From contig JADYZU010000028.1 in NCBI GenBank assembly GCA_020852925.1, positions 86,274 through 150,273 of the forward strand: 64,000 bases of DNA, read 5' to 3'. The translations under genes and the position numbers were made by a program. Position 1 is the stretch's first letter, and each line of letters starts with the position of its first letter. The stretch comes from Rubellimicrobium sp. (lineage in GTDB: Bacteria > Pseudomonadota > Alphaproteobacteria > Rhodobacterales > Rhodobacteraceae). Of the stretch, positions 14,429 to 25,022 are shown in pieces. The notes below the pieces were generated by a model. The model made no database searches. It worked only from the letters and a program-made list of their open reading frames with translations, and had not been told where the DNA came from.

Positions 14429-14848
14429 CTACTCCTCGCCCTGATCGGCCCGGCCGTCCTTGATTGTCGCGCGGGCGCGTTTCGCGGCCAGCCGCCGCTC
14501 GACCGAGGCGCGCGTGGGCCGGGTCGCCACCCGGCGCCTTGGCACGACCAGCGCCGCCCGGATGAGCGCGGCCAGACGTTCGCGCGCGATCTCGCGGTTC
14601 TGCGCCTGGCTGCGGGTATCCTGCACGAACAGGACGATCGCCCCTTCGGTGGTCCAGCGCGAACCGGCCAGCCGGCGCAGCCGTGCCTTCACCGCCTCGG
14701 TCAGCGCGGGCGAGCGCGCCGCCTCGAACCGCAATTCGACGGCGGAGGCGACCTTGTTCACGTTCTGCCCGCCCGGCCCCTGGGCGCGGACGAACTGTTC
14801 GACCAGTTCCCAGTCGGCAATGGCGATGTCGTCGGTGATGCGCAGCAT
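14429..14848 (-). CDS. arfB: Alternative ribosome-rescue peptidyl-tRNA hydrolase ArfB
   Basis: This protein releases nascent chains from ribosomes stalled at mRNA 3' ends. The class I release factor GGQ motif is at residues 26-28 (QGPGGQNVNK), at the same position as in Escherichia coli ArfB. The basic C-terminal tail (ERRLAAKRARATIKDGRADQ) is the part known to enter the empty mRNA channel. Choosing the ATG at 14848 instead of the track start gives 139 residues, the family length, and removes an unrelated extension. It lies 65 bases upstream of leuB on the same strand. Confidence 0.92.
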   Translation of the reverse strand: MLRITDDIAIADWELVEQFVRAQGPGGQNVNKVASAVELRFEAARSPALTEAVKARLRRLAGSRWTTEGAIVLFVQDTRSQAQNREIARERLAALIRAALVVPRRRVATRPTRASVERRLAAKRARATIKDGRADQGEE

Positions 14849-14916: not shown

Positions 14917-16764
14917 ATGCGTATCGGTCAGGCGATCCTTCCCGCGCTGGCGGCGCCTGGCGTGGCCGCCTGCCTGTGGCGCGGGGACTCGGTCACGCTG
15001 CTGGGGTTCACCTGCGCGGTCCTGATCCTTGCGCTGTGCATCTGGCTGGTGGCGGGGGTCATTTCGGCGGCGGTGGCGCTGCACAACATGCGCATCGTCA
15101 CCAGGGGCTCGGTCCTGCGGCTGTTCCTGAGCGGGCACCTGTGGCGCCTGATCGTGGCGCTGCCGCTGGCGCTGTGGTCGGCGGTCTGGATCGCGGTCTC
15201 GATCATCGCGGACCCGTGGCGCACCCTTGCGGGAGCGGCCCTGATCGCCGGACTTGTGCCGGGCGTCGCGCTTGCGTCGCGCGGGCTGTTCGGCAGCCAT
15301 GTGATCGCCGAACAGCGCCTGCGCGTCACGCTGCCCTTTGCCATTGCCGTGGCGGGCGCGCTGGCGCTCGGGGCCTCGCTCCTGCTGCCGAATGCCCCGC
15401 CGGCCTCGCTTGCCGAAGGGGTCGCCCGTGCCGTGCGCTATACCGGGCCGAGTGCGCTTCTGGGGCAGGTGTTCGATCTATACGCAGTGTCGGCCGGGGT
15501 GACGGACCTGTGGCGCGGCACGGGCTGGCGGTCGCTGTTCCTGGGCCTCCTGATCGAGGGATCGCTGTGGTTCGGCCTGGCCTCGGCCCTTGCGCTGCTG
15601 CTGGTGCCGGTGCGCGATCTGGCGCGGGTGCTGCGGCCGGGTGGCGGCGTGGGCGTGATCGGCTGGGCGCTGGCCGGGGCGGCGCTGGCGGCGGTGGCGC
15701 TGGTGCTGTTCGAGGGCGTCGCCCGGTTCGAGGACCGGGTGCGGATCGAGGCGCGGGTGCAGGTGGATACGCTTGCCGTGCCGGGGCCGGGTGCAGGGTC
15801 GGGCGCGGTTGTCGCGCCACTTCCCGATCTCGCGCCCGAAACCGGCATGCCGCCCGCGCTGTTGCCCAGCGCGATCCGCGAACGGATCGAGCGCGAGCAG
15901 ATCGGAGACCTGCTCTGCCCGCCGGGCACCGCCGAATGGATCGCCGCCGCGCGGGCGCGGGCGCAGGCCGTTGTGGCCATGCATGAAGGTGACATCACCG
16001 CCGCCGCCCAGGCCGGATTCGACCGGATGCGCGCCGGGGTGCCCGGGTTTCTTGATGCCTATTACAGCCTGACGGCCGAATACCTGCGCACTCTGAACCT
16101 GTTGACCGGCAATGCCGAGGGGCATCTTCAGGGGATTCTTGCCGAGCATCTGGACAGTGCCGCCGCCTTTGGCGCCCTTCAGGAGGCGCTGACCGGGCTG
16201 GAGACCACGCGGGCCACCCTGCTGGCGATGCAGGAGGAGGAGCGCGCGCGCCTGGCCGGATGCGACAGCGTGCTGCCGCGCGACGACGGCGAAGCCGTGA
16301 TCACGCTGGTCCTGCCCGCCACCGCGCCGGGCCTGCCCCTCCCGCCCGAAGGCGCGGCGTTCGAGCGCCGTCTTGCCACCGCCGGATTCGCCGGGATCGC
16401 GGGCGGGATCGGCGGGGCGGTCATCGGCAGCGTCGGGGCCAAGCTGGTGCTGGCGCCGCTGTTCAAGACCGCGGCATCGGCGCTGGTGAAGCTGGCCGGG
16501 GGGCGGCTGGCGGCGGCGCTGGCCGGGGCCGGGACCGGGGCCCTTGCCGGGGGCGGCGCCGGCAGCGTCATTCCCGGCGCGGGCACTGCGGTGGGCGCCT
16601 TCGTCGGCGGGGCGATCGGGTTCATCGGCGCCTGGATCGGCACCGACTATCTTCTGCTGCGCCTCGACGAAGCGGTGTCGCGCGCCGATTTCGAGGCCGA
16701 GATCCTGTCTGCCATCGACGCGACCGAGGCCGAATTCATCGCCGCGCTGACCGGTGTCCGCTGA
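14917..16764 (+). CDS. Large membrane protein of unknown function with glycine-rich C-terminal membrane region
   Basis: I do not recognise this 615-residue protein. Five to six hydrophobic helices lie in residues ~1-275 (for example 28-58, 74-126, 134-157, 206-232, 247-270). A soluble, helix-rich segment of about 210 residues follows and contains SAIRERIEREQIGDLLCPPG and a run of Glu/Arg-rich helices. The C-terminal third (about 485-590) is very rich in Gly and Ala, with GG and GxxxG repeats resembling a glycine-zipper membrane domain, and it ends in an acidic helix (FEAEILSAIDATEAEFIAAL). It may act in envelope or membrane stress, but nothing specific can be claimed. It diverges from arfB and stands alone. 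Confidence 0.7.
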   Translation: MRIGQAILPALAAPGVAACLWRGDSVTLLGFTCAVLILALCIWLVAGVISAAVALHNMRIVTRGSVLRLFLSGHLWRLIVALPLALWSAVWIAVSIIADPWRTLAGAALIAGLVPGVALASRGLFGSHVIAEQRLRVTLPFAIAVAGALALGASLLLPNAPPASLAEGVARAVRYTGPSALLGQVFDLYAVSAGVTDLWRGTGWRSLFLGLLIEGSLWFGLASALALLLVPVRDLARVLRPGGGVGVIGWALAGAALAAVALVLFEGVARFEDRVRIEARVQVDTLAVPGPGAGSGAVVAPLPDLAPETGMPPALLPSAIRERIEREQIGDLLCPPGTAEWIAAARARAQAVVAMHEGDITAAAQAGFDRMRAGVPGFLDAYYSLTAEYLRTLNLLTGNAEGHLQGILAEHLDSAAAFGALQEALTGLETTRATLLAMQEEERARLAGCDSVLPRDDGEAVITLVLPATAPGLPLPPEGAAFERRLATAGFAGIAGGIGGAVIGSVGAKLVLAPLFKTAASALVKLAGGRLAAALAGAGTGALAGGGAGSVIPGAGTAVGAFVGGAIGFIGAWIGTDYLLLRLDEAVSRADFEAEILSAIDATEAEFIAALTGVR

Positions 16765-16772
16765 GGGACGAA

Positions 16773-16800
16773 AAGGGCCGCACCTTGCGATGCGACCCTT
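16773..16800 (-). terminator. Rho-independent terminator of the small minus-strand transcript
   Basis: Read on the minus strand, AAGGGTCGCA, an 8-base loop and TGCGGCCCTT form a 10-bp stem (one G-T pair) followed directly by TTCG; counting the last paired bases, the T run is TTTT. The plus-strand reading lacks a T run, so orientation is minus. Confidence 0.7.
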
Positions 16801-16865
16801 CGAAAGCTCAGGAGGTGGAATCGGTTAGACGTGTCCACCCGGAGGTTGGGAACCCGAGGGCTGCC

Positions 16866-16922
16866 TCAGGTGCGCGACCTCCCGGCTGTCCCGACACCTT
16901 TCTCCAATGACTTTCTCGACAC
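16866..16922 (-). CDS. Predicted 18-residue basic peptide
   Basis: The frame is MSRKSLEKGVGTAGRSRT, started by GTG 7 bases after the GGAGG of an ideal AAAGGAGGTGATCC ribosome-binding site. It is too short for the ORF track. Five of 18 residues are Lys or Arg and there is no membrane segment. Strong SD complementarity argues for real translation, but coding may be secondary to an RNA function. I know of no matching family. Confidence 0.4.
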   Translation of the reverse strand: MSRKSLEKGVGTAGRSRT

Positions 16923-16982
16923 TGGATCACCTCCTTTCGATGGGTTGCAGATGCGGCCACCGTGGCATGCCCGGGGTTAAAG

Positions 16983-17630
16983 TCAAATGAATTTCCCGCC
17001 GGCCGCCCGCATCCGGAACGCGCGCGCCACCATGAGGCGGAACGGCACCAGTGCCACCAGCGCGATCCCGAGTTTCACCCCCAGATCCGCCAGCCCGAGC
17101 GACACCCACATCGGCGCCTGCGGCCCGAATGCCAGCAGCGGGGCCCCCTCTTGGGCCCAGACCACCGCCTCGCGCGCGGCAAGGGGAAACAGCGGGGCGA
17201 GCGTGGCCGAGAACGCGGTCGAGAAGAACACCGCCGTGTCCACCACCGAACTTGCCGCCGAGGCGACAAGCGGCGCGATCCACCACGACCGCCCCCGCAG
17301 CCGGTTGAACACGAGGATGTCAAAGCTTTGCGCCGCAAGGAAGGCCGCCGCCGATCCCACGGCGATGCGCAGGCTGACCGCCGGGCCGGATTCGAGCATC
17401 ACCTGCGTGCCGATCAGCGAACAGGCGATCCCGGTGGCAAAGCCGGCCAGCACCACGCGCCGCGCGGCCGCGGTGCCGTGCAGGCGGTTCACGATCTCGG
17501 TCACGAGAAAGGCGAAGGGATAGGTGAAGGCCCCCCAGGTCAGCAGCCCGTCAAGCAGCAGGAACTGCACGAGGACGTTCGACGCCACGACGATCACGGT
17601 CATGGCAAGGATGCCGGGCAGAAGGCGCAT
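16983..17630 (-). CDS. yhhQ: Queuosine precursor transporter (YhhQ/VUT family)
   Basis: This 215-residue inner-membrane protein has about six helices. It imports preQ0/preQ1-type precursors for the queuosine modification of tRNA. The family signature is the GLLTWGAFTYPFAFLVTEIVNRL block followed by a basic loop, then QSFDILVFNRLRGRSWWIAPLVAS. Length matches YhhQ. I found no clear preQ1 riboswitch in the 98 bases upstream. It probably belongs to the minus-strand run that begins with the thioesterase at 21539, or is transcribed from the preceding gap. Confidence 0.85.
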   Translation of the reverse strand: MRLLPGILAMTVIVVASNVLVQFLLLDGLLTWGAFTYPFAFLVTEIVNRLHGTAAARRVVLAGFATGIACSLIGTQVMLESGPAVSLRIAVGSAAAFLAAQSFDILVFNRLRGRSWWIAPLVASAASSVVDTAVFFSTAFSATLAPLFPLAAREAVVWAQEGAPLLAFGPQAPMWVSLGLADLGVKLGIALVALVPFRLMVARAFRMRAAGGKFI

Positions 17631-23819: not shown

Positions 23820-23868
23820 TGACGGCGGGACACGCCCCCCCAACGGGGCGCGATTATCTGGAAGGGTA
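23820..23868 (+). promoter_or_regulatory. Candidate serC-motif RNA element in the serC leader
   Basis: Just before the serC start the leader can form tandem hairpins (GGCG-GGACA-CGCC, then CCCC-AAC-GGGG) or one alternative hairpin (CGCCCC/GGGGCG), followed by ATTATCTGGAAGGGTAGC and the ATG. A conserved two-hairpin 'serC motif' upstream of serC-serA in Alphaproteobacteria is established, and location and architecture agree. I could not compare with the covariance model. Confidence 0.5.
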
Positions 23869-23870
23869 GC

Positions 23871-25022
23871 ATGACCACGACCCCAAGACCGGCCGCGCGG
23901 CCGGACAACCCGCGCTTCTCGTCCGGCCCCTGTGCCAAGATCCCCGGATTCACCCTCGACATGCTTGCCGGTGCGCCCCTTGGCCGGTCGCATCGTTCAG
24001 CCCTGGGCAAAGGCAGGCTGCGCGAGGCCATCGACCTGACCCGCGACGTGCTGCGTGTGCCGCCCGAATGGCGCATCGGCATCGTTCCCGCCTCGGACAC
24101 CGGCGCGGTCGAGATGGCGCTCTGGTCGCTTCTGGGCGCGCGCGGGGTCGAGATGCTCGCGTGGGAGAGTTTCGGCGAAGGCTGGATCACGGATGTGGTG
24201 AAGCAGCTTGGCCTCGATCCGCTCGTCCGTCGCGCCGAATACGGGCATCTGCCCGATCTGGCCGCGGTCGATTTCGGCAATGACGTGGTCTTCACCTGGA
24301 ACGGCACCACCTCGGGCGTGCGGGTGCCCGACGGCGACTGGATCGCCGCCGATCGCGAGGGGCTGACCATCTGCGATGCCACCTCGGCCGCCTTTGCGAT
24401 GGACCTGCCCTGGGACCGGCTCGATGTCACGACCTTCTCCTGGCAGAAGGCGCTGGGCGGCGAGGGGGCGCATGGCGTCATCATCCTCTCGCCCCGTGCC
24501 GTTCGGCGCCTCGAGAGTTACCGGCCCGCCTGGCCCCTGCCCAAGATCTTCCGCCTGACCAAGGGGGGCAAGCTGATCGAGGGAATCTTCGAGGGCGAGA
24601 CGATCAACACGCCCTCGATGCTCTGTGTCGAGGATTACCTCGTCGCGCTGAAATGGGCGCAGGGGATCGGCGGCCTGCCCGCGCTGATCGCGCGCAGCGA
24701 GGCGAATGCGAAGGTCATCGCCGATTTCGTCGCCGCGCGCGACTGGATCGCGAATCTGGCCGCGGATCCGGCCACCGCCTCCTGCACTTCGGTCTGCCTG
24801 CGCTTTGCCGATCCACGGATCGGCGACGGGGCGGCCTTTGCCAAAGCGGTGGCCAGGCGGCTCGAGGCCGAGGGCGTGGCCCTTGACATCGGCGCCTACC
24901 GCGACGCGCCGCCGGGGCTGCGCATCTGGTGCGGCTCGACCGTCGAGACCGCGGATGTCGCCGCCCTCATGCCGTGGATCGACTGGGCCTTTGCCACGGA
25001 AATCGCGGCGCTCCGGGCCTGA
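23871..25022 (+). CDS. serC: Phosphoserine aminotransferase
   Basis: This 383-residue PLP enzyme converts 3-phosphohydroxypyruvate to phosphoserine. [15 protein letters not shown] opens the class V fold. The PLP-lysine is in [16 protein letters not shown] (about residue 200). [23 protein letters not shown] is characteristic of the alphaproteobacterial SerC type, which is somewhat longer than the Escherichia coli enzyme. It is followed by serA after 65 bases, giving the usual serC-serA operon. Confidence 0.95.

Follow-up and report, generated by a model that had tools for sequence, protein, structure and literature searches.

rreR of Rubellimicrobium, probably a small mRNA that closes its own extended ribosome-binding site, and its relatives in Alphaproteobacteria

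Why do Alphaproteobacteria conserve a gene of less than 60 nt that has the strongest possible ribosome-binding site and is listed as non-coding in Rfam? The question is raised by a locus in the 64,000-nt stretch of Rubellimicrobium sp. DNA that was analysed here (the window). On the plus strand, positions 16922–16938 read CTGGATCACCTCCTTTC, so that the minus-strand RNA carries GAAAGGAGGUGAUCCAG, an extended Shine-Dalgarno (SD) element that is a perfect 17-nt complement of the 16S rRNA 3′ end and whose final base is the G of a GTG start codon. This start, 7 nt downstream of GGAGG, opens an ORF of 18 codons (16866–16922, minus strand) with the peptide VSRKSLEKGVGTAGRSRT and a TGA stop. Further downstream on the same strand lie an internal anti-SD, CACCUCC (16811–16817), and an intrinsic terminator consisting of a hairpin and a U run (16771–16801), which is supported by sequence, by folding and by many compensatory changes in its stem among 88 sequences. 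The initial annotation had described the maximal SD, the GTG mini-ORF of 18 codons at good spacing, and the downstream anti-SD with its terminator, and both sequence and coordinates turned out to be correct. The draft assembly to which the window belongs shows no 16S 3′ end; this end was read in a relative, whose rRNA locus, fetched with CTGCGGCTGGATCACCTCCTTTC, scores 1545 bits with SSU_rRNA_bacteria and continues with tRNAs and LSU. The 15-mer GAAAGGAGGTGATCC occurs only once in the whole 2.99-Mb assembly, and a scan of the window with AAAGGAGGTGATCC, allowing up to three mismatches, gave 15 matches, of which the rreR element is the sole exact one.

The gene is already named and described. 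The small mRNA rreR/rreB has been published (Hahn et al., 2017, RNA Biol 14:1353, PMC5711450). In genes of this kind, at least 16 nt of 16S complement directly precede a small ORF, and in the window 17 nt were found. The length of the ORF is also as expected, with 18 codons in 83 of 88 Rhodobacteraceae and 14 codons in four Bradyrhizobium species. The Bradyrhizobium gene rreB is said to encode 14 residues behind a 17-nt SD, and its RNA reportedly sediments with the 30S subunit, is weakly translated, and becomes more stable upon removal of the start codon. For rreR, the gene of the Rhodobacter/Roseobacter lineage, 18 encoded residues are reported. By these SD and ORF lengths, we take the window element to be the published rreR gene.

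The comparison with Rfam models returned no match of the cuckoo or CcsR type, which the initial annotation had brought into play, but a sub-threshold match to CC2171 (RF01867; 42.7 bits, E = 1.4e-7, gathering cut-off 75), in which the 5′ 24 nt are identical to the consensus. The window has the 5′ motif GAAAGGAGGUGAUCCAGUGUC and the terminal hairpin of CC2171. Pairing of the CAUUGUC:GACAAUG type between codons 2–6 and the sequence before the terminator, another feature of CC2171, is absent in the window, where closure is predicted to occur via the SD and the anti-SD. A class-wide search with RF01867 returned loci that carry an extended SD and an ORF. Judged by sequence, CC2171 is the wider alphaproteobacterial family of rreR. 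BjrC68 (RF02353) was discarded as a candidate, with a sub-threshold match confined to the terminator and no match over the cut-off in 190 genomes of the class. Elsewhere in the window, a serC leader RNA (RF00517, 69.4 bits) was found at 23823–23874 on the plus strand.

The initial annotation had named conservation in relatives as a means to check the element. A DNA search found it in 119 of 150 sampled genomes of the family. The exact pattern AAGGAGGTGATCCNRTG was present in 47 of 289 alphaproteobacterial genomes, once per genome, and a reversed control pattern gave zero; in a phylum-wide sample, nearly all pattern matches were again alphaproteobacterial. For the comparative analyses, an alignment of 88 homologous loci was used, in all of which the core of the SD is invariant. 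The upstream neighbour, a Vut_1/queuosine precursor transporter gene (yhhQ-like; 16983–17630, minus strand; Pfam PF02592, TIGR00697), is retained in 87 of the 88 loci. Overlapping its stop codon is the −35-like sequence TTGACT (16981–16986, minus strand), for which no clear −10 element was seen; in 46 of 72 relatives, a −35-like TTG[AC] precedes the SD by 47–49 nt, and the TTGACT of the window is at the expected spot. A −35 element of its own together with the terminator points to a stand-alone transcription unit, so that rreR is probably a small mRNA that has a promoter and a terminator to itself.

The comparative set allowed us to assess the ORF. Exactly 18 codons are found in 83 of the 88 homologous ORFs, which end with TGA (42), TAG (32) or TAA (9), and never with TGG, though both purine positions vary. 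The absence of TGG yields p = 3.6e-15 in Fisher's test, a figure that is inflated by the kinship of the sequences, while the absence itself is clear. At codons 2 and 11, variation is mainly of the synonymous type, that is, at the third base. A pattern scan of named genomes of the wider class revealed the start codons GTG (45) and ATG (35) in 80 loci, a set that includes two probable chance matches (L166, from an actinobacterium, and L237) and a locus cut by the end of its stretch (L172). The four Bradyrhizobium loci with ORFs of 14 codons, in agreement with rreB, were recovered with this pattern, too. The fixed length, the use of three stop codons and the lack of TGG indicate that rreR is coding, and the comparison argues firmly that the frame is translated, or selected to stay translatable; the mini-ORF of the initial annotation appears to be real. 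The frame contains the rare codons AGA, TCA, TTG, AAA, ACA and AGG, each of which is used at most 3.6 times per 1000 codons in neighbouring genes. Among the 83 homologues, AGA at codon 3 is retained in 75 and ACA at codon 12 in 81.

These observations bear on the alternative that survives best, namely that the RNA is a non-coding ribosome decoy, with a 16S complement that captures 30S subunits or masks the 16S tail and an ORF that is incidental. The complement does extend into GAUCCAG, far past the needs of initiation, and its duplex energy is −32.4 kcal/mol, compared to −10.2 kcal/mol for a plain GGAGGU. However, an incidental ORF would hardly keep a constant length with all three stops in use and no TGG, nor start with either GTG or ATG across orders. 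In addition, the RNA conceals its own SD, as described below, which would blunt a decoy. Taken together, we regard this reading as unlikely.

The closed fold is the second part of the preferred explanation, that is, of an rreR mRNA that hides its own ribosome-binding site. The minus-strand RNA of the element folds with −83.7 kcal/mol (z = −4.3), a value equalled by none of 200 shuffled sequences, whereas z is only −1.5 for the plus strand. RNAalifold, applied unprompted to the 88-locus alignment, predicted three helices. P1 pairs SD bases 16928–16934 with the anti-SD at 16811–16817, SL1 is a hairpin around the start codon (UCCAGU...AUUGGA, 16903–16926, minus strand), and P2 pairs codons 10–11 (UCGG, 16891–16894) with CCGG or CCGA beside the anti-SD (CCGA at 16821–16824 in the window). 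In the minimum free energy fold of the element, the closing helix is longer, since CUUUC (16802–16806) pairs with GAAAG within the SD. Of the 1495 alignment cells that should be paired in P1, SL1 and P2, 97.0% are paired, compared to 33–56% in versions in which the structure was slid along the alignment, a comparison in which the structure has an advantage because it was derived from the same alignment; none of 500 shuffles reached any of the measures.

The three helices differ in the kind of evidence that supports them. In P2, both sides change at all four pairs in a compensatory manner. The changes in SL1, for which pairing was followed in the 88 sequences, include C-G to U-G and G-U to G-C. 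In P1, the SD side is nearly invariant, so that variation is confined to the anti-SD side and leads almost always to bases that the fixed SD accepts, G-U pairs included. The mean probability of SD pairing with the region behind the ORF is 0.91, versus 0.50 with shuffled tails, and in the window closure of the SD requires a transcript of about 140 nt. By this comparative evidence, the SD-sequestering fold is genuine, and Rhodobacteraceae have conserved it. Conservation and covariation, with which the initial annotation had proposed to check the element, favour the minus strand. Of the toggle between SD-exposed and SD-sequestered forms that it had envisaged, the closed form has gained comparative support, while regulated switching would be an additional step that stays conjectural. 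The 5′ arm of SL1, UCCAGU, belongs to the extended SD, so that full pairing with 16S rRNA and formation of SL1 are mutually exclusive. This exclusion may be the reason why the complement reaches past GGAGG.

To what extent are these features shared by other orders of Alphaproteobacteria? The ORFs of the wider class mostly have 14–26 codons, and their peptides are lineage-specific, with only Met/Val-Ser common to all. Closure of the 5′ end recurs in another form, in which codons 2–6 pair with bases just before the terminator (CATTGTC:GACAATG, ATGAGATT:AATCTCAT, CACCAAA:TTTGGTG and CATAGT:ACTATG); the CAUUGUC version is already contained in the Rfam consensus of CC2171. Measured as the longest exact helix, since duplex energies were uninformative in GC-rich tails, the average was 5.48 with the RNA's own 3′ end and 4.08 with swapped 3′ ends (21 distinct 5′ types; 0 of 20000 permutations). 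A start-codon hairpin as a universal feature had to be abandoned; it is clear in Rhodobacteraceae and was not seen in every order. No conserved downstream gene was found in the other orders, where the orientations are mixed. In five loci with ORFs of the CC2171 type (L092, L095, L098, L099 and L117), the frame includes an imperfect 16S-tail copy, CUGGAUC..CGCCUCC, which encodes TWI(V/L)AS and could pair with the SD from inside the frame.

The second alternative is that the 18-residue product itself is functional, while the RNA structure does no more than restrict the dose. The Rhodobacteraceae consensus VSRxxLExGVGTxxxxxx speaks for this micropeptide, as its conserved N-terminus, SRxxLExGVGT, is also compatible with a functional peptide and in this respect counts against the preferred explanation. 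However, the six C-terminal residues are freely variable although the length is constant, the peptides of other orders share the first two residues only, and several conserved third positions indicate a constraint at the RNA level. We therefore consider a bioactive peptide improbable. In our view, the fact that the peptide is wholly different between orders, while the short frame and the 5′–3′ clamp recur, suggests that ribosome binding and translation as such outweigh the peptide.

A third alternative concerns the next gene. The initial annotation had stated that no gene on the minus strand is available to be controlled, which is correct for the immediate surroundings of the element in the window, but arfB (alternative ribosome-rescue aminoacyl-tRNA hydrolase; 14429–14848, minus strand; NF006718, 178.6 bits) follows about 1.9 kb further on, and it is close to rreR in relatives. 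In 73 of the 88 loci, arfB comes next on this strand, no more than a few hundred bases away; it lies a median of 52 nt behind the U run of rreR, and in 29 of 66 loci the distance does not exceed 45 nt. A congeneric species (L003) retains the uninterrupted order rreR-arfB-leuB. In the window, rreR and arfB are split by an opposite-strand ORF of 615 codons (14917–16764, plus strand; no Pfam match) that is missing from almost all relatives, including L003. At one locus (L006), a partial relative of this ORF with 44% identity occupies the same place. Between the rreR terminator and arfB, L020, L037, L041, L043 and L089 contain short direct repeats (GTATGG/GTATGC type) that may be operator sites. 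The arfB gene was present in all 61 genomes of the order that were searched.

The proximity of arfB would fit an rreR that serves as its leader, an attenuator in which the behaviour of the ribosome on the mini-ORF sets the read-through of the terminator, and an antiterminator, CCGGCCC:GGGCCG, can indeed be drawn. However, its covariation did not exceed that of shuffles. In 20 of 72 loci, the TA of a −10 element is positioned at −12 relative to the arfB start, compared to 0–5 loci at other offsets, so that arfB often looks leaderless with a promoter of its own. The upstream gene yhhQ is equally conserved, and the synteny may thus reflect descent; in the window, moreover, the inserted gene parts rreR from arfB. 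Finally, the downstream gene varies in other orders, and no ArfB match was obtained in the flanks of CC2171-type loci there. Because of the missing antiterminator covariation, the leaderless signature and the loci of other orders without ArfB, rreR is treated here as independent of arfB, and we give the attenuator only a slim chance.

The weakest alternative, a trans-acting sRNA of the cuckoo/CcsR type whose CCUCC motifs block the SDs of other mRNAs, is highly improbable, and the likeness drawn by the initial annotation was not borne out, since the CCUCC motifs that are indeed present are paired with the SD of the same RNA, the neighbouring genes encode Vut_1 and ArfB and not a DUF1127 protein, and Rfam yielded no match of that type.

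We thus return to the self-closing mRNA as the probable explanation: the SD of rreR is complementary to 16S rRNA and is followed by a frame for a peptide of 18 residues, and the complete RNA would close its own ribosome-binding site. In the full-length RNA, the SD would be bound to the anti-SD before the terminator, with codons 10–11 paired alongside and the start codon held in a hairpin. The 30S subunit would then gain access only while the RNA is nascent or after it has reopened, and the 16S tail would pair with all 17 nt and thereby strip open the start-codon hairpin. Initiation would be slow as a consequence, with the 30S subunit retained, the early run of rare codons would slow elongation further, and translation might expose the RNA to decay. 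Our guess is that the likeliest role of rreR is that of a sensor or a sink, which senses or titrates free 30S subunits, that is, initiation capacity. A more far-reaching proposal can be put forward tentatively, and we think it rather less probable than not: rreB, rreR and CC2171 might constitute one class-wide family of mini-mRNAs, in which the 3′ end imitates the 16S tail or clamps the 5′ end in some other way, the SD is contested between the RNA itself and the 30S subunit, and translation of an arbitrary frame of 14–26 codons reports the level of free ribosomes, so that frame, SD and clamp would persist while the peptide changed freely.

The present analysis adds comparative support for the closed fold, a link between an Rfam family listed as non-coding and a coding one, and the arfB synteny together with its test. 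The gene rreR offers a clean test of why cells would join an over-strong SD to a buried start codon and to rare codons, and if CC2171 is merged with rreB/rreR, existing transcriptome and Ribo-seq data from Caulobacter and Rhizobium become usable for the question of free-30S sensing.

How does rreR compare with known systems? With the rreR/rreB genes it shares the SD of 16–17 nt complementary to the 16S end, the GTG start, the tiny ORF and the stand-alone transcript; the anti-SD closure, the start-codon hairpin and their covariation come from the present analysis. CC2171, which spans the Alphaproteobacteria, has the same 5′ motif AUCGAAAGGAGGUGAUCCAGUGUC, a 5′–3′ clamp and a terminator; it is typed in Rfam as a non-coding sRNA, whereas the members examined here carry an ORF of about 14–26 codons. 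The cuckoo/CcsR RNAs of Rhodobacter resemble rreR in being small alphaproteobacterial RNAs with CCUCC motifs; their position behind a DUF1127 gene and their several tandem copies were not found for rreR, which is a single-copy gene in its genome. Leader-peptide attenuators such as rnTrpL/peTrpL also combine a short ORF, alternative structures and a terminator, often with a gene following; in contrast to them, rreR has no supported antiterminator, and its downstream gene often has a leaderless-promoter signature of its own. Type I toxin mRNAs are likewise self-sequestered small mRNAs: once full-length, they mask the SD of their tiny ORF by long-range 5′–3′ pairing. The SD of rreR appears to be hidden in the same way, but the rreR peptide is basic and not hydrophobic, and there is no homology.
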